Positions 5,666 to 27,569 of a DNA stretch of 45,502 nucleotides are shown piece by piece. Location of the stretch: assembly GCA_013215655.1 (NCBI GenBank), contig JABSOX010000044.1, positions 1-45,502 of the forward strand, in the 5' to 3' direction. The notes beneath the pieces are model-generated. The model worked only from the letters and a program-made list of their open reading frames with translations, made no database searches and was not told the origin of the DNA. The position numbers and the translations under genes were made by a program. Every line of letters starts with the position of its first letter. The first letter of the stretch is position 1. The DNA comes from Colwellia sp. GTDB taxonomy: Bacteria > Pseudomonadota > Gammaproteobacteria > Enterobacterales > Alteromonadaceae.

Positions 5666-5717
5666 ATTCAACCTCAAGTTTTAGGTTTTACCCTTGAGTT
5701 CAAATAGTGAATGTTAT

Positions 5718-5762: not shown

Positions 5763-5792
5763 TTGTTATATGAATTGTTATATGAATTGTTA
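5763..5792. repeat. 12-bp direct repeat at the end of the PD40 gene
   Basis: TTGTTATATGAA occurs twice in tandem (5763-5774, 5775-5786) and a third partial unit runs into the stop codon of the PD40 gene at 5790-5792. Confidence 0.75.
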
Positions 5793-6647: not shown

Positions 6648-6657
6648 GATTATTTCC

Positions 6658-7881: not shown

Positions 7882-7996
7882 AGCTTTCCTATAGTCCTTT
7901 TCACTATCTGTACTTAATTTTATTCGAAGCAGTGCGTTTTCATATCTGCTCTATATCTGCTCTATATCCGCGATTTTGTTCTAGCTATGCTGCTTA

Positions 7997-8851: not shown

Positions 8852-8897
8852 GATTTATTCTCTTATTTAAAATTAATTTTGATTTACCATTAATGGC

Positions 8898-9761
8898 TTA
8901 CTGCTTAGTTCTAAGAGTCTCAATAATCTGTGCATCTACCCAGTGAATACCTGAATTACTTTTACTTATAGGGCTGTTAAAGAAAAAATATTTTCCGTCT
9001 GGCGTTACGTATCCTCCCCTTTCTGCACCGCTTGTATTTATTTTATCCCCCATATTAATGGCAAGTCCCCATGAACCGTCTTGTTGCCGAAAACTGATAT
9101 ACAGATCAGACTCACCATATCCATTGACTCTTTCACTATCCCAGATTAAATACGACTCGTCTGGTGCAATGAAAGGGTGAGCTGTCCACTTGCCGGTGTT
9201 TATATTCTTACTGAGCAGTTTGGGTTCTTCACGTTTACCGTCTTTGAGCCTTGAAATGCGGATTACATCGTTGCTTTTATAATCGTCAAAAACATAGGTC
9301 CCCTTAGCGGATGCTGTTAGGCGCATAATTCCCCAGTCTTCCCGGTCGAACATGGCTCCAAGGTTTTTTACCTCTGACCAACCTGTTTTGGTGCGCTCCA
9401 TATAGTTCTTGCCCAAAAGCATAGTATTGCCATCTGGAGTTAAAATGGGTCGACCCACCCTAGGCCCCACCACAGACTCGCGCCATCGATTGTTTTCGGA
9501 TTTAAAGACAACTAATGACCATTTTCCGTCTTTGCTTCTTCTCGTAAAATAAAATTCTTTCATATCGGGCGTGAAGAAAGCGTTACCATCACGATGTTCA
9601 ATTGAAAGTACACTGGGGGCAAAAACTTTTGAGATTGACCCGGGTGGTTTTTGCCCAAGATAAGGGCCTTCAAGGACAGGAGCTTTTTCATGTCCATAGC
9701 TTTTGCTATTCATCGCTAACACAGCAAGCAGCAGAGCGATAAAAATATAACTAGCTTTCAT
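8898..9761 (-). CDS. PD40 beta-propeller exported protein (paralogue C)
   Basis: 287 residues, the first gene of the probable four-gene cluster (C, B, serine hydrolase, A). Signal peptide about 1-23 without lipobox. Shared family marks: GQKPPGSISKVFAPSV, FTPDMKEFYFTRR, TASAKGTYVFDDYK, PFIAPDESYLIWDSE and the C-terminal WVDAQIIETLR. The divergent membrane regulator at 10089 starts about 330 bp away and is the obvious candidate to control this cluster. Fold assignment good, biochemical role unknown. Confidence 0.82.
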   Translation of the reverse strand: MKASYIFIALLLAVLAMNSKSYGHEKAPVLEGPYLGQKPPGSISKVFAPSVLSIEHRDGNAFFTPDMKEFYFTRRSKDGKWSLVVFKSENNRWRESVVGPRVGRPILTPDGNTMLLGKNYMERTKTGWSEVKNLGAMFDREDWGIMRLTASAKGTYVFDDYKSNDVIRISRLKDGKREEPKLLSKNINTGKWTAHPFIAPDESYLIWDSERVNGYGESDLYISFRQQDGSWGLAINMGDKINTSGAERGGYVTPDGKYFFFNSPISKSNSGIHWVDAQIIETLRTKQ

Positions 9762-10088
9762 TATTTATTTCCTTTTTAAATTTGATAACCAAAGCACATC
9801 GCATACTCCTTTATAGGAAATATGTTCAGGTGATTACCCTCAATCACTATTTTTAGAAATAAACATCAACGTGATTGTTATTAAAGTAAGAGCGCTAGTT
9901 TAACGAGTCGAAATTAAAAGACTTGATGTTATGATGATTTTTAGCTGACGTCTTGCTGATAGTTTAAAAATCAAACGTTATCAGATGGTTAAATAATTGG
10001 GTTTAGCTGTAGCCGAGGTTATGCTAAGGTGATCCACTTTATATAGACTCACTTTTGAGCACCCGTTTTCATCCGCAATAGAGGTTAT
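9762..10088. other. Divergent promoter region of the PD40 cluster and its putative regulator
   Basis: About 330 bp between two divergent start codons. AGAGG just upstream of 10089 is a reasonable ribosome site for the regulator. I could not identify an operator with confidence, though the region is the natural place for one. Confidence 0.45.
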
Positions 10089-12326: not shown

Positions 12327-13419
12327 AAAACTTTGAAAAAGTTGATTGTCATCTAGGGCTCCCTAAAAACTAGGAACCACACTTATCTATTTTCTCCACT
12401 GAGGCTATATTACTAATTTGATAGCAACAAAACTTGATTATTTAACTTTAATCATCCTAAGATATAGTTGATTAAAAAAACAACTTATCTAAAAACCAGC
12501 CTAATTGATTGATGTATTTCTCTTTTAATTATATCTATCAAAGCAACTAAGATAAAAACAATATGCTTGAGCTGTCATGAATACATAATGCTTTGTTATC
12601 ATTACCATTTAATATATTTAATAATCTTATAGGTATTAAATGCCGTCGAAAAACTTTACGCTCAGCAGCAACGAAATTGGTATGATTTTTATGAAAAAGC
12701 TAACCAGAGATGATTTCAAAATTATTAGCTATTAAAGAATAGGTCCGATCAAAAAGGGTAATAGCACTTTCATGTTATTACCCTTTCATCTAATGAATAA
12801 AAAATCAGTTGGTGATTCTCAGACACCATATTGATGGTCTGTTCACTTTAGGACAAAACATTTATTTGAGCTCATGTCACAAAATGTAATCACCCCATAG
12901 GTCATATTTAATCGCAGTTGGCTACACTGTCGAGTTGATGCCACTGTTGAAAATAAAAGACCTAACGTCTACTTGTCTGTTAATTTGCAGTAACGCTCAT
13001 GTCTTATCTAGCAGCCTTTTCTTTAACCTTACTCCATGACTAAAACACTGACCTTTTCTTTAAAGCTTTAGCCTAAGATTTTCATTAACGTTTTTAATTA
13101 TAATTTCCTAAAATAATTGGGATATTACCCTTTATCAAAGTGTCTTATATCATTAATTCAGATCAATGCCTTTTTTGTAAAATTTAATTTCCATAAAAAC
13201 CGAGTAATTTTTTATACTGACTATACTCAATGACAAATAGATTCAACTTATCATTATATATACTTGTTTAATTTAGGGATTACTTTGTTAGAATACAAAT
13301 GTAACCCACGGTATGATCCAAGTTTGATTACTTACAATTACTACTGTTTTTTTAAATTAACGCTTAATAACAGCCAACATGCCCGAGAAGTAGCACGCAT
13401 TAAAAAGGATTGTAATTTA
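12327..13419. other. Long intergenic region with repeat copy 2 and a possible gene relic
   Basis: Nearly 1.1 kb without a full gene. It contains dispersed element copy 2 (12741-12860). At about 12634-12714 a plus-strand frame reads VLNAVEKLYAQQQRNWYDFYEKANQR then stop, with no start codon; it looks like the tail of a lost gene but this is weak. The promoter of the following signalling operon must lie near the right end. Confidence 0.45.
12741..12860 (+). repeat. Dispersed fdx-tail/terminator element, copy 2
   Basis: Hairpin at about 12754-12787 (AAGGGTAATAGCA paired with TGTTATTACCCTT, one mismatch) preceded by an A-run. The tail at 12809-12841 reads on the minus strand QTINMVSENHQ, so the ferredoxin-like peptide is kept but the stop codon is lost. 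It ends in the shared TTCACTTTAGGACA. Confidence 0.8.
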
Positions 13420-15189
13420 ATGGGTAAAAGTACGTTAGAAAAGTTTAAACCTGCAATTTTAATTGTTGACGACGTTTCGGCAAATAGGTTTGCATTACGG
13501 CAATTGCTCAAATCAATCGATGCTGATCTTATCGAAGCATCTTCCGGCGAAGAAGCTTTAGTAAAAGCCATTGAATTAGATAATTTGGCCTTGATTTTAC
13601 TCGATGTGCAAATGCCGATAATGGACGGCTACGAAACAGCTGAGTTACTGAGAGAAGAAGAGCAAACACTTCATATCCCTATCATTTTTGTCACTGCTGT
13701 GCACAGAGATGAACAGCATATATTAAAAGGCTATTTTTCCGGCGCCATTGATTATATTACCAAACCAATTCAACCTGAGATATTAGCAGCAAAAATATCG
13801 CTTTTCATGGAGTTATGGCGGTTGAGATTCGGGTTAGAACGAGAAATATTTAATAGAAATAAACTCGAAGATAAAAATAAATTTCTTGCCGATCATGACA
13901 TGTTAACGAGTTTACCAAATAGACGAAGCCTTTTTCTTGAAATAGAACGAGCAGCTGCACGTTCAGATCGAGACAATCATGAGTTTGCGTTGTTATTTAT
14001 AGATTTAGACGGTTTTAAGTCCGTAAACGATACTTTAGGTCATAAGGTAGGTGATGCGGTACTTATTCAAATCGCAAATAGGTTTAGTGGCTTAGTTAGA
14101 AAAACAGATACCGTTGCTAGATTTGGTGGCGATGAATTTGTTATTTTATTAACCGATATCAGTAATTCGCAATTCCTGATCAGTCGAATTACCGAAGTAT
14201 TAGAAATTGCCAGAAAACCGATTTTTATCAAAAACGAAGAAATTTCCTTAAGTGTAAGTGTCGGTGTTTGTATTTACCCTGACCAAATAGACGACGTAGA
14301 TAAGTTGGTTGATTATGCCGATATCGCTATGTATAAATCAAAAGAATTGGGGAAAAATACCTTTAGTTTTTTCTCTAACGACATGGATCAAGCAGCTCAT
14401 CGACGATTAACCGTAGAAAAACAATTACGACATGCAAGAAAAAAGAACGAATTTTCAATTCATTATCAGCCCGTTGTTAATTGCAACACAGGTAAACCTG
14501 TTGGTGTTGAAGCACTATTACGCTGGAAAAACAGCGAGTTAGGCAGCGTCCCTCCTGACTATTTCATCCCAATTGCTGAGTCTAGCGGATTAATACATGA
14601 ACTGGGGGCTTGGGTTTTTGAACAATCAATTGAAACAATTACTGAAATCAATAAAAGAATGCAGTCATTGCCTATCACATTAAAAGTCGCAGTTAATGCA
14701 TCAACACTGCAATTCAAAAATTCACTTTGGTTTAAAACATTACAAAAGGCGATAAAAACCGAAAAAATATCTCCTGAAAATATTGAAATTGAAATTACCG
14801 AAGGGTTACTGCTAGAAGATTCATCTGAAATTAATAATCAATTATCAAAAATCAGAGCCTTAGGCATTAGCTTGTCTGTAGATGATTTTGGTACAGGTTA
14901 TTCAGCATTGAGTTACTTAAAACGCTGCCCAATAAATACTGTAAAAATTGACAGAAGTTTTGTTAAAGGTATTCCTGAAGATAGAGAAGATATGGTGTTG
15001 ATTCACGCAATAATTGCAATGGCGCATGGCTTAGGATTAGTTGTTATCGCTGAAGGAATCGAGACACAAGAGCAGTGGGACTTCCTTAAATCTGAAAATT
15101 GTGACTTCGCGCAAGGTTATTTTTTTAGTAAACCTTTGCCCTCACAAGAGCTTGAAACTTGGTTGGATAAACAGTTTAGTGGCAAGTAG
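13420..15189 (+). CDS. Response regulator with GGDEF and EAL domains
   Basis: 589 residues from the ATG at 13420, chosen over an earlier ATG at 13264 because AAGGA lies 10 bp upstream and the receiver domain begins directly after it. REC domain about 11-130: DD at 17-18, phospho-Asp62, Lys115. GGDEF domain about 155-325 with intact GGDEF (236-240) and the RxxD inhibitory site (227-230). EAL domain about 335-585 with EALLRW (365-370), the DDFGTGYS loop and AEGIE. Both cyclase and phosphodiesterase sites look competent, so the protein may switch c-di-GMP synthesis or breakdown on phosphorylation. It heads a same-strand group with the hybrid kinase, cheR and cheB; the kinase begins about 120 bp downstream and is the likely phosphodonor. 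Confidence 0.92.
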   Translation: MGKSTLEKFKPAILIVDDVSANRFALRQLLKSIDADLIEASSGEEALVKAIELDNLALILLDVQMPIMDGYETAELLREEEQTLHIPIIFVTAVHRDEQHILKGYFSGAIDYITKPIQPEILAAKISLFMELWRLRFGLEREIFNRNKLEDKNKFLADHDMLTSLPNRRSLFLEIERAAARSDRDNHEFALLFIDLDGFKSVNDTLGHKVGDAVLIQIANRFSGLVRKTDTVARFGGDEFVILLTDISNSQFLISRITEVLEIARKPIFIKNEEISLSVSVGVCIYPDQIDDVDKLVDYADIAMYKSKELGKNTFSFFSNDMDQAAHRRLTVEKQLRHARKKNEFSIHYQPVVNCNTGKPVGVEALLRWKNSELGSVPPDYFIPIAESSGLIHELGAWVFEQSIETITEINKRMQSLPITLKVAVNASTLQFKNSLWFKTLQKAIKTEKISPENIEIEITEGLLLEDSSEINNQLSKIRALGISLSVDDFGTGYSALSYLKRCPINTVKIDRSFVKGIPEDREDMVLIHAIIAMAHGLGLVVIAEGIETQEQWDFLKSENCDFAQGYFFSKPLPSQELETWLDKQFSGK

Positions 15190-15308
15190 AAAAAGTTATT
15201 TTTCAAAGGCTGCCATTAAGAAAAATAAATTTAAGCATGATCCCCTAGAAGTATTCGTATTTTCAATATTGATACTCGTTACTCGTTATTTGTTGGAGTT
15301 GATGATTT

Positions 15309-18300
15309 ATGTCGATGAAAAATAATATTAATTTTTTTGAAAAACTCAGTACCCGCTTATTTACCCCGCTAATCGTTATTTTTATTTTTGTTATTATTAT
15401 TCTAATAGTATACGTACCGTCAGTAACACAAGAACACACCATAAAATCAGCCATATCAACAGCAGAAAATACGGTAAAGCAATACAAAAACATTAGAAGT
15501 TATTATACAAAAAACGTAATTAAAAAAGTACTTGGCACCTCTGATGTTACGGCCAGCTATGATCATGAAGGTAAAAATAAAGTTATCCCTTTACCTGCAA
15601 CGTTTATTCACGAAATAAGTGAAGAGTTTACTAAGCAGGGCATTATCTCTTTAAAATTATATAGCCCTTTCCCTTTCCCCAACAGAAAAAATAGAACGCT
15701 CGATAGTTTTGCCAATAATGCTTGGTCCGCATTAAAAGACAATAAAATCAAGACCTTTTCACAAGTCGATATTATTGATGGAAAAGAAGTTGTACGTGTA
15801 GCAATTGCCGATACAATGACTCAACAAGCATGTGTCGATTGTCATAACATCCATCCTCAAACACCTAAAAATGATTGGCAACTCAACGATGTAAGAGGTG
15901 TATTAGAAGTTCAAATTCCTATTGAGGAGCAATTAGTTAATGCTACTTCACTGAATGACGAAATCACCTTAATTGTACTCGCAGCAGTATCTTCAACAGT
16001 TATATTATTGTTTATAATGTTCAAAAGGCTAGTTTCTACTCGCTTAGCGAATGTTCATGACGCGTTGCAATATATTGCCAGTAGTGATGGAGATTTAAGC
16101 CAGAGATTAATAGAAACGCGTAAAGATGAAATTGGCCAATTAGCACAAGGTTATAATCAGATGCTACAAAGTATCAACGACAGTAGAAATACAGTCAAAG
16201 CCAGAGAATGGTTAGAAAATGGCATTTCAGAAATAAATAATATTATACGAGAGTCGCAAGATAAAACCCAAGTATCAAATCAGTTACTCTCTTATTTGGT
16301 ACGCTATCTTGAATGTCATCTTGGCGCTTTGTATTGGTTAGATGAAAATGGATTAAAACCTTACGCCACCTATGCTTTAGAGCAGCAACTTCCAAAATTA
16401 AAAACAATTGCACTAGGTGAAGGGCTTGTTGGTCAAGTAGCCCTAAATAAAAAGCCGTTGCATATTACTACAATTCCTAATAATTACTATGATATCAGTA
16501 GTAGCTTTGGTGAAGTAAAACCTCAATCACTCATCATTTACCCTATTATTTATAATGATAAAGTGATTGCTATCATTGAATTAGCTTGGTTAACAGAGAC
16601 ACCAGATAAATCGTTAACCTTCTTAGAAATGGTAAGTGAAGTGCTAGCAGTGTCTTGTATTAACATAAACCAAAATGAAAATGTTTTGACGATGTTAAAA
16701 GAAAGCCAAGTGCAATCAGAAGAGCTGCAAACACAACAAGAAGAATTACGAGTCACCAATGAAGCTTTATCGGTTAAAACAGATGCAATAAAAAATCAGC
16801 AAACGATTTTAGAAAAAACCAATCGAGAAATGGAAGAAAAGGCAGCGGCACTTGAGGAATCGAGTAAATATAAAAGTGAATTTCTAGCAAATATGTCTCA
16901 CGAATTACGCACGCCCCTCAATAGCTTACTTATTTTGTCGAGATCATTGGCACAAAACGATGATAACAATTTATCTGATGACGAAGTAGAGTCTGCTGAG
17001 GTTATTCAAGAGAGTGGTCGTAGCTTGTTAGAACTTATTAATGAAATTTTAGACTTATCTAAAGTTGAAGCAGGTCAGATGCAAGTGATCGCTGACACAC
17101 TCAGTGTTGATGACTTTATTGCAACACTTAACCGTAAATTCACCCATATGGCTGAAGATAAAAAGCTTAATTTCAACATAAACTTAGCAGATAACGTACC
17201 AAACTCCTTTGTTGTTGATAGTAGTAAACTTCATCAAATAATCACTAACTTGATTAGTAATGCACTAAAGTTTACTGAACAAGGTGAAGTTAATTTAACA
17301 CTTTCCTATAAGGAACAAGAGTCAAACGAATCTAAGTCAGAACAGCAGTTGATATTTTCTATAACTGACACAGGCATTGGCATTGCCAAAGAAAAGCATC
17401 AAGCGATATTCGAAGCCTTTCAACAAGCAGATGGGACAACAAGCAGAACATATGGTGGAACAGGACTAGGTTTATCAATCGCTTTAAGCTTCGCGAAGTT
17501 ACTTGGCGGTGATATTACGTTAGAAAGTGAAATTGGCAAAGGCAGTCGCTTTTCCTTGAATTTACCTTATATACCTCACAGACCCGCTGAAGAGTCTTGC
17601 AATGCTGCTGAATCAATGGCAATAGCAACTAATACTATAAAACAAAATTTTGTTTGTTTACCCCCTCCTTTTGAAGATGATAGAAACAAGCTAGATCAAA
17701 TAAAAAAATTAATTTTAATAATAGAGGATGATGTACCATTTGCACGCATTGTTTTTCATGCTTGTCACCGACAAGATTGTCAGGCTATAGTTGCTACTGA
17801 TGGTGAGAGTGGCTTAGTTTTGGCTAGCCAGTATCCTATTGACGGCATTGTACTTGACTATATGCTACCTAAACTAGACGGAGGTGAAGTAGCAAAAAAT
17901 ATACGGTCGAATAAAAAAACAAAACATATTCCAATTCACTTAGTGAGTGCTTTAGATAATATCGATGCGATGGATATTGTCGGTATTAATGAAAAATCAA
18001 CAAAACCTATTGCTCATCAACGGCTAACCGAAATTATTAAATCATTTGCTAAAGAACAAAAGAACCTGAATATACTCATTGTAGAAAATGATAAAAATGC
18101 TCTATTCGCGATGAATAAGTTATTGACTAAAGAAAAGGTAACTACTTTCGGTGTTGATAATGCTCAAGAAGCATTAACATTATTAAAAGAAAATACCTAC
18201 GATGCAATTATTCTAGACCTTGACTTACCAGAAATTTCAGGCTTTGAATTTCTTGAATTAGCCTCATCGGACTCTACCGTTACACTGCCTACTGTTTTTA

Positions 18301-18896
18301 TTTATTCAGGACGTGACATGTCTGAAGAGGATTTATCTCGCTTATCGCCCTTTACAGGAAATGTTATTGTTAAGTCAGCAAGGTCGCCAGAAAGGTTACT
18401 CGATGAAATTCATTTGTTTGCTAACCAAGTTGCCAACATTTCTGCTGATAAGGAAAAATATTATTCACCAAGTAATCAAACAAATGCAGCAACTGTTCCT
18501 GAGCCCATGCGCCAACCTGATGCAAGCTTTGAAAACAGAGCGATTTTGCTCGTTGATGACGATATGCGTAATACCTTTGCACTGGCTAAAGTACTTAGAA
18601 AGGAAAAGTTAAAGGTTAGAATAGCCTCTAGTGGTCAACAATCGATTGATATGCTAAATGAGCATTCAGATATTGAATTAGTACTGATGGATATTATGAT
18701 GCCGGGAATGGATGGTTATCAGGCAATGAATAAGATCAGAGAACTGAATAAATTTAAAGAACTCGCTATTATAGCAGTAACCGCTAATGCAATGCCCGGC
18801 GATAAAGAAAAATGCTTAGCAGCTGGAGCCAATGACTATATGTCGAAGCCTGTCGATGTAGGTCAGTTATTAACTATGATGAAGTTATGGTTATAG
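15309..18896 (+). CDS. Hybrid sensor histidine kinase with periplasmic CxxCH domain, HAMP, GAF and three receivers
   Basis: 1195 residues. Membrane segment about 19-37, then a periplasmic domain to about 218 that resembles the DUF3365/Tll0287-like sensor and contains CVDCH (175-179), a c-type haem attachment motif. A second membrane segment (about 219-238) is followed by HAMP (240-290), GAF (about 305-450), a coiled coil (460-520), HisKA with phospho-His531 in FLANMSHELRTPLNSL, and HATPase (about 640-760) ending in GGTGLGLS. Three receivers follow, at about 785-905 (VLDYMLP), 912-1030 (ILDLDLP) and 1078-1195 (LMDIMMPGMDG). The layout suggests sensing of redox state or small ligands by haem and output to CheR/CheB and the c-di-GMP protein. 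cheR overlaps its end by 10 bp, so the genes are translationally linked. Confidence 0.92.
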   Translation: MSMKNNINFFEKLSTRLFTPLIVIFIFVIIILIVYVPSVTQEHTIKSAISTAENTVKQYKNIRSYYTKNVIKKVLGTSDVTASYDHEGKNKVIPLPATFIHEISEEFTKQGIISLKLYSPFPFPNRKNRTLDSFANNAWSALKDNKIKTFSQVDIIDGKEVVRVAIADTMTQQACVDCHNIHPQTPKNDWQLNDVRGVLEVQIPIEEQLVNATSLNDEITLIVLAAVSSTVILLFIMFKRLVSTRLANVHDALQYIASSDGDLSQRLIETRKDEIGQLAQGYNQMLQSINDSRNTVKAREWLENGISEINNIIRESQDKTQVSNQLLSYLVRYLECHLGALYWLDENGLKPYATYALEQQLPKLKTIALGEGLVGQVALNKKPLHITTIPNNYYDISSSFGEVKPQSLIIYPIIYNDKVIAIIELAWLTETPDKSLTFLEMVSEVLAVSCININQNENVLTMLKESQVQSEELQTQQEELRVTNEALSVKTDAIKNQQTILEKTNREMEEKAAALEESSKYKSEFLANMSHELRTPLNSLLILSRSLAQNDDNNLSDDEVESAEVIQESGRSLLELINEILDLSKVEAGQMQVIADTLSVDDFIATLNRKFTHMAEDKKLNFNINLADNVPNSFVVDSSKLHQIITNLISNALKFTEQGEVNLTLSYKEQESNESKSEQQLIFSITDTGIGIAKEKHQAIFEAFQQADGTTSRTYGGTGLGLSIALSFAKLLGGDITLESEIGKGSRFSLNLPYIPHRPAEESCNAAESMAIATNTIKQNFVCLPPPFEDDRNKLDQIKKLILIIEDDVPFARIVFHACHRQDCQAIVATDGESGLVLASQYPIDGIVLDYMLPKLDGGEVAKNIRSNKKTKHIPIHLVSALDNIDAMDIVGINEKSTKPIAHQRLTEIIKSFAKEQKNLNILIVENDKNALFAMNKLLTKEKVTTFGVDNAQEALTLLKENTYDAIILDLDLPEISGFEFLELASSDSTVTLPTVFIYSGRDMSEEDLSRLSPFTGNVIVKSARSPERLLDEIHLFANQVANISADKEKYYSPSNQTNAATVPEPMRQPDASFENRAILLVDDDMRNTFALAKVLRKEKLKVRIASSGQQSIDMLNEHSDIELVLMDIMMPGMDGYQAMNKIRELNKFKELAIIAVTANAMPGDKEKCLAAGANDYMSKPVDVGQLLTMMKLWL

Positions 18897-19768
18897 CAAC
18901 GGAAATACCTATTTTGGATGAACAAAGTATTACTGAAACCCTGCGGACTAAAAATATTGAAATTGACTTGTTCATTACCGCGATTAAAGAAAAAGTAGGC
19001 TACGATTTAAGTGGTTATGCAAGGGCGTCTATTAAAAGGCGTATTGAGCAATTAGTTATTGATGAAAACGTAACGTGTATTGCAGAGCTTATTCCGAAGC
19101 TACTCTACTCAAAAGAGTGCCAAGCGAATTATATTAATCGCCTTACTGTCAATGTATCAGAGCTATTCAGACATCCAAATTCTTTCTTGAGTCTTAGAAA
19201 ATCTGTTTTGCCTTACTTAGAGAGCTTTCCCCGCCGCGACATTTGGATTGCAGGGTGCGCCACAGGTGAAGAAGCCTATTCAATGGCAATATTACTAGAG
19301 GAAGTTGGCTTATTAAATAATACACAAATTCACGCCACCGATATAAACACAGAAGTACTTAAACAAGCCAAAACCGGTATCTTAACTAAAGGGCTCAATA
19401 AAGATGACGCCGCGCGCTATCAAGCTAGCGGAGGAACATCAAGTTTAAGTAACTACTTCTCAACAGCATATAATAAACACAAACTATCTCAACACTTGTT
19501 AGATCACATTAGTTTCAGTCACCATAACATTTTACAAGATAAGGTTTTTTGTTCAGCTCAACTGGTTATGTGTCGAAATGTAATGATCTATTTTGATTTA
19601 AATACACAGAATAGTGCTTTGGCTTTATTTCATAATTCACTAGTTCAAAATGGTTATTTAGTTATTGGCGAAAAAGAAAGCCTAATAAACTCCCCTCTTA
19701 TTAATCTACTTAAAACAATAGATGAACCAGCAAAGATATATCAACGAAAAAGCAGTGCTAATGTCTGA
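18887..19768 (+). CDS. cheR: CheR-type protein-glutamate methyltransferase
   Basis: 293 residues. The N-terminal helical domain contains GYDLSGYARASIKRRIEQL (38-56). The SAM-binding domain has IWIAGCATGEEAYSMA (119-134), the acidic loop ATDIN, and LVMCRNVMIYFD near the C-terminus. CheR uses SAM to methylate glutamates in sensor proteins. The usual NxTxFFR substrate motif is altered to NVSELFRHP (89-97). The gene overlaps the hybrid kinase by 10 bp and cheB by 8 bp. No chemoreceptor gene is in the window, so the target may be the hybrid kinase itself or a distant receptor. Confidence 0.93.
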   Translation: MVIATEIPILDEQSITETLRTKNIEIDLFITAIKEKVGYDLSGYARASIKRRIEQLVIDENVTCIAELIPKLLYSKECQANYINRLTVNVSELFRHPNSFLSLRKSVLPYLESFPRRDIWIAGCATGEEAYSMAILLEEVGLLNNTQIHATDINTEVLKQAKTGILTKGLNKDDAARYQASGGTSSLSNYFSTAYNKHKLSQHLLDHISFSHHNILQDKVFCSAQLVMCRNVMIYFDLNTQNSALALFHNSLVQNGYLVIGEKESLINSPLINLLKTIDEPAKIYQRKSSANV

Positions 19769-20324
19769 TTTCAGGGTGTTTATTGGCGGTTCAGCTGGCT
19801 CGATTGCACCAATAAAGACCATACTATCAAGCTTGCCCACTGATTTTAATTTGATCATTACGTTAATAATCCACTCAAGTGGCGACAATAATACTTCGAT
19901 GATAGAAGCTATAGCCAGTTGTTGTACATTAACAGTTATTGAAATCAGTGATAAAGAAATCGTTAAACCAAATACTATTTACCTTGCACCAGGTGGCTAC
20001 CATTTATACGTAGAAAATATAAACAGTTACTCTCTCTCTGTTGATAAAAAAGAACATTACTGCCGACCTGCAATTGATCTGCTTTTTACTTCTGCAGCAG
20101 AGACTTTTGGCAAGCACTGTATTGCTATTTTATTAAGTGGTGCCAACGAAGATGGCACTGAAGGTTTACTCAATGTAAAACGTCACGGAGGTCTAACGAT
20201 AGTGCAATCGCCTGAATTATCTCAAGTGAGTATAATGCCGAAAATAGCCATTGAACGTGGTGCCGCAACCAAGGTTTTATCGCCAAAAGAAATTAGTCAT
20301 TTACTCTTGGAGTATAACGATTAA
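19761..20324 (+). CDS. cheB: CheB-type methylesterase, catalytic domain only
   Basis: 187 residues from ATG 19761, which overlaps the cheR stop; an earlier in-frame ATG at 19722 lies well inside cheR and would add only 13 residues. The CheB esterase triad is visible as Ser11 in FIGGSAGS, His38 in LIIHSSGDN and Asp131 in LSGANEDGTEG. It hydrolyses methylglutamate or deamidates glutamine in sensors. The receiver domain that controls classical chemotaxis CheB is missing, so activity must be regulated another way, perhaps by direct contact with the hybrid kinase receivers. Last gene of the operon. Confidence 0.9.
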   Translation: MSDFRVFIGGSAGSIAPIKTILSSLPTDFNLIITLIIHSSGDNNTSMIEAIASCCTLTVIEISDKEIVKPNTIYLAPGGYHLYVENINSYSLSVDKKEHYCRPAIDLLFTSAAETFGKHCIAILLSGANEDGTEGLLNVKRHGGLTIVQSPELSQVSIMPKIAIERGAATKVLSPKEISHLLLEYND

Positions 20325-21113
20325 AATTAAGTTTACTTAACCTATTTGGAAGCTTAAACCATTTTCATACCATTCATAACAAGTAAAAAGAAAATGGACC
20401 TGATCCTCCTTCGATAAAACGGACACAAAAACCAATTATATTGCGAAAATTAATGGAGCTATTAGTGAAACACCCGTTCAAATAAATTTTAGTGCAATAG
20501 TCAATGGACACTATACCAATCCTAAATTACCATTCGGTCACAGTATTCGTTCGGTAAAGTCAAAGCAAACTAAAAGTAAAACTGAAGAACAAAGTACTAT
20601 CAAAGCTCTATGATTTAAAAACAATAAAGATAATATACGCTACAAAACATCCAGTTAAAATCAACATACTATTGGCTAGTTTTGTAACAAAAACTTCGAA
20701 CAAAAAAGGGTAATTACACTTGCGTGTTATTACCCTTTTCTCTTTATAATTTCAAATTAAATATCAATGATTCTCTGAAACCATATTAATGGTATGTTCA
20801 CTTTAGGACAAAGCATTAATACAGTATTATTGACAAATAGGTTATTCAAAAGGAAATTAAAATTAATCTATTTGATATTGACCCATTAAGTTCTGTCACT
20901 AGAGTTTATTTTCTGTATTGATCATAGTCCTAAAATATAATGTGGTTTAGGCTTTAATAAGTAATTTACTTGTAACCAAGTTAAAATTTAAGTATGAATC
21001 CTAGCAAAAAATATTTACCAAAGAGGTGATTGAGGCAAAGGTTGAGGCATAAAAATTATACCTCTAGTTATCTTTCTTTAGCCTCATTGTAGCTAAATTC
21101 ACCTTAAATGAGC
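20325..21113. other. Convergent intergenic region with repeat copy 3 and a possible relic reading frame
   Basis: About 790 bp between cheB and the tricorn-like gene. It holds the dispersed element copy 3. From about 20408 to 20613 the plus strand is open and reads through GAISETPVQINFSAIVNGHY and KLPFGHSI before a stop. There is no ATG or ribosome site; this may be a gene fragment but could be chance. Confidence 0.4.
20700..20815 (+). repeat. Dispersed fdx-tail/terminator element, copy 3
   Basis: Hairpin at about 20706-20739 with A-run and T-run flanks, giving a bidirectional terminator between cheB and the tricorn-like gene. The tail at 20764-20796 reads on the minus strand HTINMVSENH then TGA. 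It ends in TTCACTTTAGGACA. Confidence 0.85.
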
Positions 21114-24100
21114 TTACTTCGGCAATACATCCTCTGCCGGCTTCGGTCTATTAGGAAAAGGCTGTGCTTTTAAAGGCAATATAGGTGACTTTTTCATTTC
21201 GTCTTCTAAATATTTTATCGCTGAATCCAACTGGGCATCTTTGCCATTAAAAGTTTCATACGGCAAATTGTCCACTTCAATTGTCGGAGTTACACCGCTT
21301 GCCTCAACGATCCAACGTCCATCCATGGCATACTGAGGAAATTCAGCAACCCGCGCCATACCGTTATCCACTAATCGGTTCATACCACGAAGCCAAACAC
21401 CAGCACCCGCCGTTTTCTTACCAATCACTGGCGCAAGATTAAGTGCTTTAATACCCGCAGTGAACGTTTCGCCATCTGAATAAGTATATTGATCCGCTAA
21501 AATAACAAGGTGACCACGGAAAGTCTGTTGCATATTAGTCGATGCTGGTCCTATTGGCGCTTGCCAAAACATCCAAGCACGACGCAATAGTTTTTCTATG
21601 ATCCAGCTATCAATATTGCCACCACGGTTACGTCTAACATCAATGATTAAACCATGTTTATTATAATTGGCATAAAATTCACGGGCAAAACTAGCGATGT
21701 CACCTGCCCCCATGGCATATAAGTGTAAATAGCCAATTTGATCATGCGATTTTTCAACCTTTACCCGATTGTTATTAACCCAATCATTATAACGTAGTCG
21801 GCTATCTTTCCTCGATGATGTAGGTGTAACCACGGTTTTAACTGTTTTATCGTCACGTTTCAAAGATAGTAATATTTGTTTACCCGCTTGATTGCGCAAT
21901 AAATTATTAAGATCGGCAATTGATGAAATATCCTTACCGTTAATCGCAAAAATCACATCACCGTTTGCTGCATTCACACCCGGTCGTAATAAGGGCGAGG
22001 CTTGGCTAGGTAATTCATTATCAAATTGATAAATATGCTCTATCAACACACCGCTTTTAGCTTGCGTTAATATTGCGCCTAATGATGCCGGTTTTGCACT
22101 ATTACTGTCTTTGGCAAAATCACCACCGCGTACCTGTGAATGTAATGCATTTAACTCACCCATCATTTGAGAAAATATATCGTTAAGCTCATAACGGTCA
22201 GTAATGCGACTTAACAAAGGTAGGTACTTTTTCTGGGTTGCTTGCCAATCGAGGCCGCGCATATTTTTATCGAAAAATGAATCCCTGTGCATTAACCAAG
22301 CATCATGGAATATCTGATTCCATTCTTGTCTCGGGTTAATTAATAATTGCCAATCTTTGCTGATCACTTTCGATTCTTTAAGTTCTTTAGGGAACTTAGC
22401 ACCTGCATCAACAATAAATAATTTACTATTACCACCATCCTGTTTTACCAACATTCTTTTGCCATTATCAGACAGGCTGTAAGTAGCAATACCTGTAGCA
22501 AATGTTTTAAGCTCGGGAGAAGCTTTAATTTTTATCGACTTTATACTCGGTTTACTTTTCGGCTCGGTAATTTTGTCTATCACATAAAGAAATTTATCAT
22601 TCATGGTCAAGTTATCATAATTGCCAGAAGCAACTGGCACTTGCCAAAGGCGGTTACTTAATCCTTGCCAATCAACCAGATTAGTTTTCACTTCTTTTTC
22701 TGTCTTACTTTTATCACTTTCTGCTTTACCTTTTTTCTCATCCTTCTCTTTAGAACTTTCCATCAATTCATTAGGTCTTTGAAAGGGGAATTTTGCATCT
22801 TTCTTTAATGAATAAGCAAATATTTCCGTTCTACGGTCAAAAACCGTGCCTAAGTTTCTATCGCCCCAAGGTGATCTTGGCCCAGCGCTAAATGCTCTGT
22901 CTGATAGAAAATAAATCCAATTACCATCAGGGCTAAAAGCAGGTGAAAAAGAGTTATATTTATCGCTCGTTAACGTGACTTGTTTGTCTTCGGCTAAGGA
23001 AAACAATAAAACACGACTTCTTTCATCTTTTTGATGTGTTCTAGTGGTCGATAATAACTGGCTATCAGCAGACCAAGTCACTCTAGAGTAGGGATCTAAG
23101 CCCGCTCCTAAAGTCATTATCTTTTTATTTTTACCTGTACTGGTATTGAGTAACCAAAGATCGCCATTCATATCATCATGAGCAATCCATTTTCCATCAG
23201 GAGAAAGTGACAAGTCCCAACGAAAAATAGAACCGTCATTGGTCAGCTGTTCAGCCTTTTTAGAACCATCAGCCGCATACTTCCATAACTCTAATTCACC
23301 ACTGGCATCGTTAATGGCATAAACCCATTTACCATCATGACTTAATATTGCCTTGCGCGTTCTCGACTCTGGATCAGTCGCCACTTCTACTAAGCGAGAC
23401 TTATCAATACCGGCAACCGCAACCCTGCCACGCGCAGTAATAACCACTTTATCGAAATCTGAAGCTATACGGGTTGAGGTCGCATATTCTAGCGGATCGT
23501 TAAGCCAATGTTCACGCAGGTTTGGAAAATCAGAGGTTAATTCAATGGCTAATGTTTTACTTTTAGCACTTTTTAAGGCTAATAGTTTAATATCAGCGCC
23601 TAATTGATAAACAATGTTTCCTTCATCTAACTTGGCAGTGCGAACTGGCCATTCTTTATAGAAAGTAACTTGTTTTTGATTTTTACCCGCCAAACTCATT
23701 GACCAAATATTGTCGTTACCACTGGCATCACTGATAAAATAAAGTTTGTTTTTATACACCATAGGTTGGCGAACAGAGCCGATATGATCAGACGTTAATT
23801 TCTTAGCCTCTTTTTTAGAGCCTAATTTATACGACCATAGTTCGCCCTTCGCGCCACCGCGATAAACCTTGTTATTATCGGTGGAAACTTGTAAACCAAA
23901 TTGAATGAAATATATATTTTTATTATTTTCATCAATTGTGCCTTCCACGGCATCCGCTAACGGAATTGATTTTGCGACTAACGTGTTAGGGTCAACCTGA
24001 CGTAATGTCCAGTTACCCGTAGGGCCAACGCGATTGTTACTGCTATATAAAATGTCGCCATTAGTAGTCCAACCTTGTAAACGAACACTACTGTTTTCAA

Positions 24101-24413
24101 AACTTATGCGTTTGGCAATGCCACCATTAATGCCGATAACATAAACTTCTTTAGCACCTTCATAATTCGCCACAAAAGCAACTTGCTTGCCATCGTTTGA
24201 AATTGTTGCCTGTATTTCTTCAGCTGGATGAGTTGTTAACCTTCGCGCCTGAGATTGATTTACTTGGCTTACCCAAAGATCACCTTCTGCGGTGAAAACC
24301 AGCGTATCTTTATGAATGTCTGGAGAACGATAATAACCTGTTGATGCGTTAGTTGTAGCGCATATCCCTGGTAACAAGCCGATTAATAATGCGGCCGTGA
24401 ATTTTAAATTCAT
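21114..24413 (-). CDS. Periplasmic tricorn-like S41 protease (PD40 propeller, PDZ, S41)
   Basis: 1099 residues. Signal peptide about 1-23, then two propeller regions with many PD40 blades (DTLVFTAEGDLWVS, LSPDGKWIAHDDMNGDLWL, FSPDGNWIYFLSDRAFS). The central charged linker (about 550-580) is Lys/Glu-rich. A PDZ domain (INGKDISSIADLNNLLRN) precedes the S41 catalytic domain with GLIIDVRRNRGGNIDSW and nucleophile Ser979 in YTYSDGE. The histidine in GELNALHSQVRGG matches the tricorn active-site His, but the neighbouring residue that is Ser in archaeal tricorn is Leu here. Family role: degradation of peptides or misfolded proteins, in this case in the periplasm. Single gene, with dispersed element copies on both flanks. 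Confidence 0.93.
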   Translation of the reverse strand: MNLKFTAALLIGLLPGICATTNASTGYYRSPDIHKDTLVFTAEGDLWVSQVNQSQARRLTTHPAEEIQATISNDGKQVAFVANYEGAKEVYVIGINGGIAKRISFENSSVRLQGWTTNGDILYSSNNRVGPTGNWTLRQVDPNTLVAKSIPLADAVEGTIDENNKNIYFIQFGLQVSTDNNKVYRGGAKGELWSYKLGSKKEAKKLTSDHIGSVRQPMVYKNKLYFISDASGNDNIWSMSLAGKNQKQVTFYKEWPVRTAKLDEGNIVYQLGADIKLLALKSAKSKTLAIELTSDFPNLREHWLNDPLEYATSTRIASDFDKVVITARGRVAVAGIDKSRLVEVATDPESRTRKAILSHDGKWVYAINDASGELELWKYAADGSKKAEQLTNDGSIFRWDLSLSPDGKWIAHDDMNGDLWLLNTSTGKNKKIMTLGAGLDPYSRVTWSADSQLLSTTRTHQKDERSRVLLFSLAEDKQVTLTSDKYNSFSPAFSPDGNWIYFLSDRAFSAGPRSPWGDRNLGTVFDRRTEIFAYSLKKDAKFPFQRPNELMESSKEKDEKKGKAESDKSKTEKEVKTNLVDWQGLSNRLWQVPVASGNYDNLTMNDKFLYVIDKITEPKSKPSIKSIKIKASPELKTFATGIATYSLSDNGKRMLVKQDGGNSKLFIVDAGAKFPKELKESKVISKDWQLLINPRQEWNQIFHDAWLMHRDSFFDKNMRGLDWQATQKKYLPLLSRITDRYELNDIFSQMMGELNALHSQVRGGDFAKDSNSAKPASLGAILTQAKSGVLIEHIYQFDNELPSQASPLLRPGVNAANGDVIFAINGKDISSIADLNNLLRNQAGKQILLSLKRDDKTVKTVVTPTSSRKDSRLRYNDWVNNNRVKVEKSHDQIGYLHLYAMGAGDIASFAREFYANYNKHGLIIDVRRNRGGNIDSWIIEKLLRRAWMFWQAPIGPASTNMQQTFRGHLVILADQYTYSDGETFTAGIKALNLAPVIGKKTAGAGVWLRGMNRLVDNGMARVAEFPQYAMDGRWIVEASGVTPTIEVDNLPYETFNGKDAQLDSAIKYLEDEMKKSPILPLKAQPFPNRPKPAEDVLPK

Positions 24414-24649
24414 TCTATATCCTTGTCATTTTTTATTTATTATATTTATCAATTTCTCTTAGATTATCCTAGTTCTTAATTCTCCCCTAGGATTAACTTG
24501 TAGGATTTATGAATGAAATTACAGTCCTGTAACTACTTTTTACTGGATAATAATTGAATTTTATTAGAGATGTAGTGAATTGGGGACGGTAGCACGCTCA
24601 AATAAAACAAAGCGCTAATGTCCGCAATGCGAATTTGAACATAAGTATT

Positions 24650-24786
24650 TATCAATTGGACACGATGTCCGATCAAAAAAGGGTAATAACATCAGGATGT
24701 TATTACCATTTATCATAAAATATATTTAAAGTTCAATTAGTGGGTTTCAGAAACCATATTAATAGTATGTTCACTTTAGGACAAAA
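24650..24786 (+). repeat. Dispersed fdx-tail/terminator element, copy 4
   Basis: Most complete copy. The left part, ATCAATTGGACACGATGTCC, matches the region beside fdx at 27144-27165. The hairpin at about 24679-24708 is followed on the minus strand by a T-run, so it can terminate the dimethylargininase transcript. The tail at 24737-24769 reads on the minus strand HTINMVSETH then TAA, identical in its last seven residues to the real ferredoxin end. Confidence 0.88.
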
Positions 24787-24792
24787 TCTTAC

Positions 24793-24825
24793 TTTTCTGT
24801 TTTCTGTTTTCTGTTTTCTGTTTTC
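24793..24825. repeat. Heptanucleotide tandem repeat (TTTTCTG x4 plus a partial unit)
   Basis: Four perfect TTTTCTG units (24793-24820) and a partial fifth, directly next to element copy 4 and about 80 bp beyond the dimethylargininase stop codon. Confidence 0.9.
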
Positions 24826-24905
24826 ACCACAAAGCAACGGCACAGTAAAAATCAAGTTAAGACCTGCCTGGCAATTTGAGTTTATTCATATACTTTGCAA
24901 AAGCA

Positions 24906-25667
24906 CTAAAAACGCAGTGACAAACAACTTAATCCACCATCCAACTTCTGAAATTCAGACATCGCCACTTCGCGTGTTTTATAACCTAATTGTTGAATCG
25001 CATGCAGCACTTTAGGAAATCCTTTAGGCACCAACACAGTGCCATTTATCCATACACAGTTGGCTGCATAGTCTTCATCCTTATCAATTTTTATTCGATT
25101 GAATTGGATAAAATCAACATGTTCATTCATTTCACCAAAAGTCAGTAGGTTATTATCCTCTAAATAACTTAACCCCGTTTTTAAATGCAATAATTCTGAC
25201 ATTTCAACCATAGAGCCAGACAAATCATATTTACCCAATATTTCGATCAATTGTTCAGCACCTTTAACATCTGTCCGATCTGACAAACCAATATAAAAAT
25301 GACCACCCACCATCATAATATCGCCAGCTTCCACATGACCAGTTAATTCAATGCTTACTACTTCGGGATAAAATGCTTTAATCGCTTCCTCAATATGTTG
25401 AGTTTCTCCCCTACGGCTTGCCGCGCCCGGATGAGTTAAAATGGCGCACTTAGGTGTGAGTAGGGCTACATCTTCGACAAAACAAGAATCAGGGTAGTCT
25501 TCTAACGCTGGCAATTCGGTGATCTGTAAACCACATTCTTTAAGGGCGATAATATAATCCTGATGTTGCTCACAGGCTAAGGCATAGTCGGGTAAACCCA
25601 TATTTGCTTCGGTTAGTCCTTTAAGCATAGCTTTGCAAGGTTTGCGTACAATTGCTCGAGTAAACAT
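24906..25667 (-). CDS. ddaH: Dimethylarginine dimethylaminohydrolase
   Basis: 253 residues, the length of the bacterial enzyme. It hydrolyses N-omega-methylated arginines to citrulline and methylamines. Catalytic Cys248 lies in GGLSCLSLRF and His161 in LLHLKTGLSYLE. Other conserved blocks are YPDSCFVED (58-66), HPGAASRRGET (79-89) and VEAGDIMMVGGHFYIG (112-127). From memory the whole protein closely follows the Pseudomonas aeruginosa enzyme. The permease gene lies 30 bp upstream on the same strand, so the pair probably imports and degrades an arginine derivative. Arginine deiminase and agmatine deiminase relatives are less likely given the C-terminal signature. Confidence 0.93.
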   Translation of the reverse strand: MFTRAIVRKPCKAMLKGLTEANMGLPDYALACEQHQDYIIALKECGLQITELPALEDYPDSCFVEDVALLTPKCAILTHPGAASRRGETQHIEEAIKAFYPEVVSIELTGHVEAGDIMMVGGHFYIGLSDRTDVKGAEQLIEILGKYDLSGSMVEMSELLHLKTGLSYLEDNNLLTFGEMNEHVDFIQFNRIKIDKDEDYAANCVWINGTVLVPKGFPKVLHAIQQLGYKTREVAMSEFQKLDGGLSCLSLRF

Positions 25668-25697
25668 TTTCTCTCCTATTATTTATTGGAATAGAGC

Positions 25698-26921
25698 TTA
25701 TTGATATAAAACCCATACACCTATAATTGCCAATAGCGAAAACAACGTCGCTAATAGAGCTATAGTAAGTTGCACAATATTAATTTTTTGGCCTTGTTTA
25801 TGGTCTTGCCACTGTAGTTTTATACTCGCCAACCCTGTGCCTAAGTAAACAATCATCACAGCGAAAGTGGCAATAATGACCAAATACTCATAACTGCTGA
25901 TGAGGGACTCACTGTTACTAATTAATAAAAGAATGGCGCCTAAAACACTTGAAAATAACAATGCGCGTACGGGAGTACCTTGTGCGTTTTGCTGGCTAAA
26001 ATACTTAGGAAACATGCCATCTCTTGCGCCTGCGAGCAAGATAGTACCCGTGATCATAATACATACATTTAAAGTACCACTTATCGCAAACAAAGCGCCG
26101 ATAGTGATAATGATGGCACCTGAGTTGCCCATAAGAATTTGTGCAGCATCAGCAAAAGGCGATGTTGATTGCTGTAACTCTGCCAAGGGAATAATAGACA
26201 TCAAACCAAACATAGCAACCATATAGACAATTACTGCGGTTAGGGTGCCTAAGATAGAGGCTTTGGGAATGGTTTTTTTAGGGTCAATGGTATCTTCAGA
26301 TGGCAAGGTAGCAGACTCGACACCAATAAAAGAAAACATAATCAATAAGCATAACGCCGCAACCATATGAAATAGCGAATTATTATCAGGATTAATCGCG
26401 GGAATTTCTTTGATCTCTCCAAACATAATGCCAGCGACACCTAAAAAGACTAAAGGTAGGATCTTAATTACAGTGGTAACAAGTTGCACCGTACTGGCCT
26501 CACGCATACCACGAATGTTGATAGCGGTGAACAAAATAATAAGACTAATGGCAAATGCGGCACTGAATAGTGAGTTATCGATAAATGGCAAATATGCCTT
26601 ACTATAACCGGTAAAGGCAAGCGCAAGCGCGGGCACCGATGAAACTAAGGATATCCAATATCCCCAAGCGACAATGGCTGCCCATTTAGGGCCAAAGGCT
26701 TCTTGAACATAAAAATAAGGGCCGCCTAAACCGGGTTTACGGGATGACAAATAACTATAACTTAAGGCTAAGCATATGGCACCAAATCCGGTCACCGCCC
26801 AACCAAGAAAGCTATAACTGCCATAAGGGGCAAGTAAGGCTGGCATAGTCAAAATGCCTGAACCTATCATCATACCGGCCACTAGTGCCCACGAACGCCA
26901 TATTCCGATTGTTTTTTTCAC
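25698..26921 (-). CDS. APC-family amino acid permease
   Basis: 407 residues, strongly hydrophobic, with about 11-12 membrane helices. The first helix carries GMMIGSGILTMPA (16-28), the substrate-loop motif of APC antiporters/permeases; GGPYFYVQEAFGPKWA follows at the TM2-TM3 region. It resembles the arginine/ornithine/polyamine antiporter branch more than large amino-acid symporters. It is the first gene of a two-gene unit with ddaH (30 bp apart), which suggests transport of arginine, methylarginine or the citrulline product. Direction of transport cannot be told from sequence. Confidence 0.9.
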   Translation of the reverse strand: MKKTIGIWRSWALVAGMMIGSGILTMPALLAPYGSYSFLGWAVTGFGAICLALSYSYLSSRKPGLGGPYFYVQEAFGPKWAAIVAWGYWISLVSSVPALALAFTGYSKAYLPFIDNSLFSAAFAISLIILFTAINIRGMREASTVQLVTTVIKILPLVFLGVAGIMFGEIKEIPAINPDNNSLFHMVAALCLLIMFSFIGVESATLPSEDTIDPKKTIPKASILGTLTAVIVYMVAMFGLMSIIPLAELQQSTSPFADAAQILMGNSGAIIITIGALFAISGTLNVCIMITGTILLAGARDGMFPKYFSQQNAQGTPVRALLFSSVLGAILLLISNSESLISSYEYLVIIATFAVMIVYLGTGLASIKLQWQDHKQGQKINIVQLTIALLATLFSLLAIIGVWVLYQ

Positions 26922-27230
26922 TGTAATTCTTCTTATAGCTTAGTGTTATTAGCAGAGATTCTACTGACAGACTAAACACTAATAATGATTATTTCAACTG
27001 GTATGAGCTTTTTGCATGGTTAAATTTAAAACATTTTCCGGAGCTTTAATAGCCTTTACAATATTTGGCTTCTCCCTTTTAAGACGGCACTAAGAATGTC
27101 AACTCACGCACCTATTCTTTGTATAAATATTAGACATAATAATTTATCATTTGGACACTATATCCAATTAAAAAAGGGTAATAATATTTTCATATTATTA
27201 CCCTTTTTTAAAAATTATTTAAAACACTAT
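26922..27230. other. Intergenic region between fdx and the permease gene
   Basis: About 310 bp holding the isc operon terminator (element copy 5) and presumably the permease promoter. No iscX-like reading frame is present here, although iscX often follows fdx in gammaproteobacteria. Confidence 0.6.
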
Positions 27231-27270
27231 CTAGTGAGTTTCTGAAACCATGTTCACCGTATACTTAGGT
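27144..27270 (+). repeat. Dispersed element copy 5: true 3' end of fdx with its terminator
   Basis: Same order and spacing as the other copies, but the tail (27231-27263) is the actual end of the fdx reading frame (YTVNMVSETH then TAG). The left flank ATCATTTGGACACTATATCC matches copy 4. This copy is the candidate source or template of the family. Confidence 0.88.
27173..27207 (-). terminator. Intrinsic terminator of the isc operon
   Basis: Perfect 14-bp stem AAGGGTAATAATAT / ATATTATTACCCTT with a short loop, followed by a T-run on the minus strand just after the fdx stop codon. A T-run on the plus side makes it potentially bidirectional. Confidence 0.88.
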
Positions 27271-27569
27271 ATTTCAACAACCAAATCTTCATCACCAACA
27301 ATTGCTTGGCAGCCTAGGCGAGATTCTGGCTCTAAGCCCCATGCTCGATCAAGCATATCGTCTTCAAGTTCATCGCTTTCTTCGATGGAATCAAAACCTT
27401 CACGGATGATCATATGACAGGTTGTACAGGCGCAAACTTTTTCACAGGCATGTTCAACACCAATATCATTTTTAAGAGCGACGTTTAGAATGGTTTCGCC
27501 CTTTTCAGCTTGTACTACTGCCCCATCTGGGCATAAATCTTCGTTGGGGAGAAAAATAATTTGTGGCAT
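27231..27569 (-). CDS. fdx: ISC-system 2Fe-2S ferredoxin
   Basis: 112 residues. Adrenodoxin-type ferredoxin that supplies electrons during Fe-S cluster assembly. Cluster ligands are Cys42, Cys48, Cys51 and Cys87, matching the E. coli numbering; an extra Cys46 is present. The acidic helix SIEESDELEDDMLDRAWGLE is typical. Last gene of the isc operon, 35 bp after hscA. Its last eleven codons are duplicated in the dispersed elements described here. iscX is absent downstream. Confidence 0.97.
   Translation of the reverse strand: MPQIIFLPNEDLCPDGAVVQAEKGETILNVALKNDIGVEHACEKVCACTTCHMIIREGFDSIEESDELEDDMLDRAWGLEPESRLGCQAIVGDEDLVVEIPKYTVNMVSETH

Follow-up and report, generated by a model that had tools for sequence, protein, structure and literature searches.

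The last codons of the isc ferredoxin gene, best read as an insertion dock of the serine-recombinase type in Colwellia and its relatives

In a 45,502-nucleotide stretch of DNA from Colwellia sp. (the whole of it is called the window here), the 3' end of fdx, the ferredoxin gene of the isc operon, recurs in four copies. The structure is real, and it is best read as an insertion dock of the serine-recombinase type in the last codons of fdx. We propose, with a probability of about 0.9, that the repeats are attachment-site (att) scars of successive site-specific insertions into the Asn-Met codons of the gene.

The target gene was identified as fdx_isc (TIGR02007), with hscA, iscU and iscR upstream. 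The preliminary description of this DNA, made from the sequence alone, had pointed to four minus-strand elements at about 5.6, 12.8, 20.7 and 24.7 kb repeating the fdx 3' end and its terminator, and the repeat families (D4-D7, D9) confirm them (Table 1): terminator-type hairpins stand at fdx and at all four copies, named E1 to E4 by position, and tail repeats were found at 12813-12840, 20768-20795 and 24741-24768, that of fdx lying at 27235-27262. Our translations also agree with the earlier reading of the tails as xTINMVSE(N/T)H, two of them followed by a stop, against YTVNMVSETH-stop at the end of fdx itself; the 12.8-kb tail (E2), which has lost its stop, runs on as QTINMVSENHQ, and the 5.6-kb copy (E1) has single-base gaps and carries TTAGTGA (Ser codon AGT), like the recombinase-bearing ends described below. 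Every copy opens with a TTTGTCCTAAAGTGAACATAC-type arm, where fdx has its own codons, and the repeat reaches upstream of the tail with TTTGTCCTAAAGTGAACA, which is exact in copies 2 to 4, has two mismatches in copy 1 and is absent from fdx. On the 3' side of the arm (minus strand), the copies and fdx have the tail, the spacer and the hairpin in common. As the gene is oriented, all the copies are downstream of fdx, and each is the edge of a different gene block. The elements had been called dispersed; with the 127-bp fdx end as query, a search of all 161 contigs of the genome (5.56 Mb) placed them instead on this contig alone and downstream of fdx, with six matches at E<=0.001, two of which are hairpins on the opposite strand. 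Likewise, the 24-nt arm, with up to three mismatches allowed, was found at three places in the genome, all on the window contig.

Table 1. Features of the fdx dock in the window (positions are those of the whole stretch)
Feature	Positions	Strand	Content and basis
fdx	27231..27569	-	ISC-system 2Fe-2S ferredoxin gene, proposed insertion target; TIGR02007, 189.4 bits (cut-off 132.1)
Core in fdx	27248..27254	-	AACATGG (Asn-Met codons); by alignment from the divergence point of G212/G131 and G205/G287, inferred for the window
fdx terminator hairpin	27171..27211	-	cassette side of the core; repeat families
Block 1	24755..27254		dimethylargininase-like gene (24906-25667), basic amino-acid antiporter-like gene (25698-26921); bounded by fdx and E4 cores
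att copy E4	24735..24788	-	arm TTTGTCCTAAAGTGAACATACTAT and displaced fdx tail HTINMVSETH-stop; repeats, profile E=2e-16
E4 terminator hairpin	24676..24716	-	repeat families
Block 2	20782..24754		single tricorn/S41-type peptidase gene (21114-24413); bounded by E4 and E3
att copy E3	20762..20815	-	arm and displaced fdx tail HTINMVSENH-stop; repeats, profile E=1.1e-16
E3 terminator hairpin	20703..20743	-	repeat families
Block 3	12827..20781		response-regulator GGDEF-EAL, hybrid histidine kinase, CheR and CheB genes (13264-20324); family searches
att copy E2	12807..12860	-	arm and displaced fdx tail QTINMVSENH, stop lost; repeats, profile E=2.7e-16
E2 terminator hairpin	12751..12791	-	repeat families
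Block 4	5636..12826		CadC-like regulator gene (10089-12326), PD40 proteins and beta-lactamase-family protein (5790-9761); bounded by E2 and E1
att copy E1	5617..5668	-	diverged arm and gapped tail; profile E=4e-10
E1 terminator hairpin	5558..5598	-	repeat families

The main evidence for insertion comes from relatives in which filled and unfilled sites can be compared, in three genera (g30, g8 and g14), with a fourth (g22) agreeing at the gene level. In genus g30, fdx of genome G212 is followed by a 2.2-kb cassette and one copy; in G131, a 38.8-kb island and a copy come between fdx and this same cassette (96.4% identical), beyond which there are further copies. From the core on, copy 1 of G131 shares 91.8% identity (over 110 nt) with the G212 fdx end versus 56.4% with its own, and the similarity between the two genomes stops at the core. 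Since this first copy matches the G212 fdx end, the newest block adjoins fdx and the previous end was carried away, an order which is shown for this pair. In genus g8, a 35-kb island in G287 has at its far end a copy that shares 72.7% identity with the G205 fdx end versus 52.8% with its own; the flank of this copy aligns too, and after it come genes of the sizes found after fdx in G205 (481, 701, 711 and 804 aa). In genus g14, fdx of G018 is directly followed by a 424-aa gene, a family that G150 and G122 have only after 1.4 and 5.7 kb, respectively, of other genes and then a copy. The far copies of G150 and G122 resemble the G018 fdx end (71.6 and 76.1%) more than their own (63.2 and 68.7%), and that of G122 has a different left arm, which speaks against the insertion model. 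In genus g22, the gene cluster that comes after fdx in G026 and G126 is preceded in G154 by cargo, a copy and two genes, this copy being 73.0% identical to the G026 fdx end, 59.7% to its own and 52.7 to 59.1% to three others. The filled and unfilled pairs change at AAYATGG. Altogether, these comparisons show at the sequence level that, in relatives, blocks were inserted inside the Asn-Met codons near the fdx end, displacing the old end. No unfilled sister of the window was found among the relatives compared, and we thus infer the same insertion history for the window itself from its own anatomy and its relatives.

The enzyme may be traced through two unusual gene ends. In G131 and G287, fdx ends with MVSER-stop, encoded by bases (TAGGACAAA) that are the mirror of the arm's TTTGTCCTA. 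Joining the halves from the same genome gives a 52-bp dyad in which 15 (G131) and 16 (G287) of 26 half-site positions are symmetric, a symmetry reached by 15 and 5 of 20000 shuffles, respectively; displaced host-type halves give 10 and 8, and a typed composite accounts for a higher figure of 17/26. Ends of the exact MVSER type were present in 2 of 395 genomes, both carrying the recombinase frame, while two further matches had two mismatches each and a reversed-pattern control gave five. We deduce that the right half of the putative attP would double as the last codons of the ferredoxin, Met-Val-Ser-Glu-Arg-stop. Against the insertion model, most cassettes have host-like tails and not the MVSER half-site. 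The Ser codon AGT was seen in 6 of 62 fdx ends, including those of G028 and G080, where no recombinase was found.

The recombinase in question is present in full in G131, as an intact 566-aa protein with resolvase, recombinase and zinc-ribbon domains (PF00239, PF07508 and PF13408) and the motifs YIRFS and DRLSR; it lies between fdx and copy 1 at 30 kb from fdx, a distance that counts against the insertion model. A truncated form (89-90%) stands directly after fdx in G287, pointing toward fdx, and a decayed one beside fdx in G418, both within ~230 bases of the fdx stop. When 395 family genomes were searched whole, 30 had a recombinase match at E<=1e-25, and identity exceeded 41% in G131, G287 and G418 only. 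As all three of these relatives sit in the fdx locus, the inserting enzyme is likely the large serine recombinase of that locus. A fragment beside fdx in G145 (49% over 55 aa) was found by searching fdx-side stretches only and does not count independently. In the ten genomes that have more distant relatives and in which fdx is placed (G020, G023, G077, G094, G114, G115, G178, G179, G191 and G205), none was found downstream of fdx within 100 kb, the relative in G114 being 41 kb upstream, and across 394 genomes of the order the best relative had 41% identity. The nearest NCBIfam names were CcrB, XisF and CcrA, all far below cut-off (62.7 bits versus 900 for CcrB, 42.7 versus 700 for CcrA). Relatives were also found in 69 plasmid and 280 phage records, all below 60% identity among the matches listed (10 each); in viral contigs, short exact peptide patterns revealed no recombinase relative, and neither the MVSER pattern nor the arm and tail pattern was found.

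We propose a model in which the target is AAYATGG, its Asn being the seventh codon before the fdx stop. A circular element would carry an attP composed of a TTTGTCCTAAAGTGAACATACCAT-type left half-site, a short core and a right half, the latter both completing the recombination site and encoding a replacement ferredoxin end with its stop and terminator. Crossover, at bases that can be placed approximately, would join the fdx body to the replacement end of the element, so that the gene stays intact, and the old fdx end, headed by the left arm of the element, would be moved to the far side of the new DNA. Repeated insertion would build a stack in which the newest block adjoins fdx and earlier discarded ends follow downstream of it. 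A non-palindromic middle of the core (AA by inspection) would fix the orientation, matching the same-strand copies observed. In the window, the core in fdx would be the place where the newest cassette joins the gene body. A search of the window genome at E<=1e-25 yielded no member of this recombinase family, which counts against the insertion model; the stack of the window would hence be a relic or have been filled in trans, and recombinase-free blocks in general could have moved with the enzyme in trans or represent remnants of larger islands.

The four blocks of the window measure 2440, 3973, 7955 and 7194 bp, and block 1 is by position the newest of the stack. Base composition does not set them apart, G+C being 35-40% throughout. 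In G005, two att copies enclose kinase and response-regulator genes related to those of block 3 (same clusters, >=40% identity), and cargo in other genomes includes teneurin/RHS-like and cadherin/PKD-type proteins. Six of 10 cargo proteins scanned were without any Pfam match, and PADLOC gave only weak partial matches, to histidine kinase, on the four proteins submitted. In comparison with an integron, the window array has fdx at its head and no integrase among its proteins scanned. It is conceivable, at somewhat less than even odds, that the window blocks never were separate mobile units but remain from one large serine-recombinase island, or from a few, that underwent deletion and kept their att copies. 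The lack of a family recombinase in the window genome and the decayed fragments beside fdx in G418, G145 and G287 would suit such remains, whereas small units are favoured by the 2.2-kb block that both G212 and G131 have kept whole between att copies and by the single 1.4-kb block of G150.

Within the insertion model, a more specific and tentative proposal, which we consider rather less probable than its opposite, is that of a class of fdx-targeting cassette chromosomes in Alteromonadaceae-type bacteria whose attP half-site is also the coding end of a housekeeping protein of the host and in which a reset from MVSER to MVSENH lets recombinase-free cassettes stack. A recombinase-bearing insertion would rewrite the ferredoxin to the MVSER end; the return of this end to MVSENH by mutation or exchange would recreate an insertable attB, and the reset dock could then stack recombinase-free cassettes of one to a few genes with the enzyme acting in trans. 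The ends of G033 (SERH), G145 (SENH, with Ser AGT) and window E1 (TTAGTGA) are such as would be expected from this path.

Site-specific insertion could also be right with a tyrosine recombinase as the enzyme, which we regard as unlikely. Every one of the 23 genomes searched contained tyrosine recombinase genes; two lie inside the G287 array, the G131 array includes a short one, and in G068 one stands ~9 kb downstream of fdx, ~2 kb past the last, weak copy. Among the matches listed for these 23 genomes, none was seen at the fdx edge of an array. Moreover, inverted arm copies recur in the left ends of islands (G287, G034, G131, G214, G089, G103 and others); measured from the fdx stop or the element tail, they stand at ~90-110 and 177-189 nt (in L158 of G287, L093 of G131, L156 of G214, L153 of G103 and others) and nearer in G076 (30-37 nt). 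At such fixed distances they resemble arm-type sites; a minimal serine-integrase attP does not need them, which weighs against our model, in which they are possibly extra recombinase or regulator sites. Nevertheless, the two G287 tyrosine recombinases each adjoin a partner gene that is the same in both cases, as would be seen with an unrelated insertion, the serine recombinase alone tracks the locus (3/3 genome-wide) and the MVSER end (2/2), and the deduced attP dyad has the size of a serine-integrase site.

The placement of the copies was surveyed across the family. The arm and tail pattern was found in Colwellia piezophila, other Colwellia and a Thalassotalea (eight stretches, two from G005 and one from G004). 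A sequence-only profile of 12 arm and tail sites, with AAYATG in 12/12 aligned sites and G as the next base in 11, matched 95 of 295 family genomes at E<=0.001, many of them by the tail only, as the fdx end itself gives. All 23 extra copies (E<=6e-7) on the fdx contig, in 13 of the 295 genomes, were downstream of fdx and on the same strand, at up to 56 kb, as were 19 of 19 when the four of the window were set aside. This count excludes six further extra copies on other draft contigs (three in G005, one each in G214, G103 and G084), weaker matches and tail-only matches in genomes without a placed fdx. One weaker match each in G106, G122 and G068 fits the downstream and same-strand rule; G214 has a weak arm-only match on the opposite strand just after fdx, and matches away from fdx occur in G203 (tail-only, E=2.3e-6), G005, G001, G153, G159 and G060, that of G203 counting against the insertion model. 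Left ends were less alike than fdx codons 1-100 in nine of ten pairs compared between genera, the tenth being equal (71.1 and 71.0), and recent transfer between genera is therefore unsupported.

This one-sided placement bears on the earlier suggestion that fragments of fdx ends had been spread, here by ectopic recombination, gene conversion or duplication, which we now hold to be very unlikely, the copies being best read as repeated site-specific insertion inside the last codons. The suggestion started from a coding-type substitution bias, taken as a signature of coding descent, and this bias is real. Relative to fdx, the three window tails differ at 7/3/20 codon positions 1/2/3 over 33 nt, and element tails of many genomes, right of the crossover, differ from the fdx consensus at 12/6/52, the count using the 29 of 38 tails that matched this consensus at >=23/33 positions, with gapped or weak ones left out. 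The 38 include some near-chance matches, and selecting well-matching tails favours mild change. Sixty working fdx ends gave 15/19/94, the same bias as the element tails; chi-square values were tiny but, the sequences being related, are not probabilities. A premature or lost stop was found in 6/29 ungapped tails and NMVSE plus stop was kept in 16/38, figures that do not favour the other suggestion made at the time, that selection maintains the peptide end. The most fitting reading of the bias is a legacy of the period when each copy was the working fdx end, followed by decay.

Several copies are indeed closest to the fdx end of their own genome, as spread fragments would be and against the insertion model: window E4 (75.7% versus 58.8-67.9% to five same-genus ends) and the copies of G005 (71.2% versus 48.0-55.4% to the ends of relatives), G004 (57.5% versus 42.5-52.0%), G106 (71.4% versus 65.5%) and G067 (68.1% versus 66.7%), the difference being small for G118 and G197. 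Tails brought by elements of close kin would give this, as would exchange or local duplication. However, the copies have a common arm which fdx lacks, all 23 on the fdx contig obey the placement rule, the copy is nearer to the fdx end of a relative than to its own in G131, G287, G150, G122 and G154, and spreading is made unlikely for G131 by the cassette shared with G212 and the similarity ending at the core.

Small RNA genes forming a family that stems from the fdx 3' UTR, with a minus-strand promoter (TTGTCC-17 nt-TAATAT), an ~80-nt RNA beginning close to the fdx-like tail and the terminator, were first considered for their promoter-like spacing and terminator and dropped on the unfilled-site comparisons; we now judge this reading highly improbable. 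Hexamer-like spacing exists in copies 3 and 4 and more weakly in copy 2, the hairpins are followed by T runs and the arm is conserved, but the window gave no Rfam match at gathering score, promoter-like sites in 5000-24999 were at chance level (70 versus 68.5 expected) with these hexamers absent among those listed, at least three copies elsewhere (L066, L067 and L071) keep the arm with no hairpin right after the tail, and unfilled sites, one-sided placement and block structure would be left unexplained. A Tn7-like transposon with TG...CA ends, considered for the arm repeated inverted at the left end, was rejected by inspection as no short target duplication fits, the repeated stretch being the fdx tail and terminator.

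Genomic islands that occupy the 3' end of tRNA genes follow a known restoration rule. In one such island, the final 20 bp of a tRNA-Lys gene are reported to recur, and tRNA-bordered tycheposons with xerD are described as well (PMC10872708); the repetition of a gene's 3' end through an island is common to these and the fdx dock, which differs by its target gene and by a serine recombinase in place of a tyrosine recombinase. A close parallel is offered by SCC/SCCmec and ECC elements, in which, according to PMC6222049, a large serine recombinase directs insertion at the 3' end of rlmH, att sites of ~50 bp form a dyad in the circular form with core TATCATAA, multiple attR sites occur in 16/32 ECC and cargo is highly variable. 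Like these, the fdx dock has an element-encoded large serine recombinase (intact in G131, truncated in G287, none of the family in the window genome), the 3' region of a conserved protein gene as target and a deduced attP dyad of ~50 bp (15 and 16 of 26 in G131 and G287), besides multiple att copies and highly variable cargo. Unlike them, as far as that source describes them, the target is fdx and not rlmH, the core is AAYATG and not TATCATAA, G131 has a single recombinase match and no CcrA/CcrB pair, with scores far below the Ccr cut-offs, and the dock, found in Gammaproteobacteria, holds many recombinase-free blocks of 1-8 kb. Thus, it works like the cassette chromosomes at rlmH and is not a member of them by the tests made. 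In Streptomyces, the serine integrase of phiJoe and relatives uses an attB 74 bp from an ORF end, occupied by mobile elements of varying content (PMC5311408); insertion of the serine-integrase type near an ORF end is shared with the fdx dock, while host, gene and recombinase differ and stacking is not described in the available part of that paper. An element targeting fdx was named in none of the literature titles listed, which were seen mostly at the level of title and abstract opening, so that absence from print is not thereby shown.

Our analysis offers a reason for the variable DNA downstream of the isc operon in Colwellia and relatives and provides the arm and ferredoxin end as a sequence tag by which acquired blocks can be delimited. 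It points to a core iron-sulfur gene of marine Gammaproteobacteria as the seat of a serine-recombinase dock. Recombinase and att pair, as deduced here, could become an integration tool for these hosts. If true, the proposed scheme would turn the fdx end into a dock at which imported genes stack up in marine bacteria, and would clearly exemplify joint constraint on a recombination site and on the C-terminus of a protein.

Some further observations concern the genes around these sites. Three PD40-repeat paralogs (64-80% alike at the DNA level) surround the beta-lactamase-family gene of block 4, and genes of the same clusters as this region were found in the G004 array. Signal-transduction genes adjoin the fdx dock in L068 (3985-5759), L071 (774-2857) and L070 (567-2105), named by eye as a histidine kinase with a LytTR-like regulator and proteins of the methyl-accepting type. 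In G287 (C1, L150 and L157; oriented 19.3-21.1 and 34.8-36.6 kb), a gene for a 281-282-aa protein followed by one for a 314-319-aa tyrosine recombinase occurs in two copies and is probably a separate insertion element nested in the island. Finally, a short near-palindrome of the TTGGACAC-N-ATGTCC type lies beyond both the E4 and the fdx terminators in the window (24656-24670 and 27151-27165; repeat D7).
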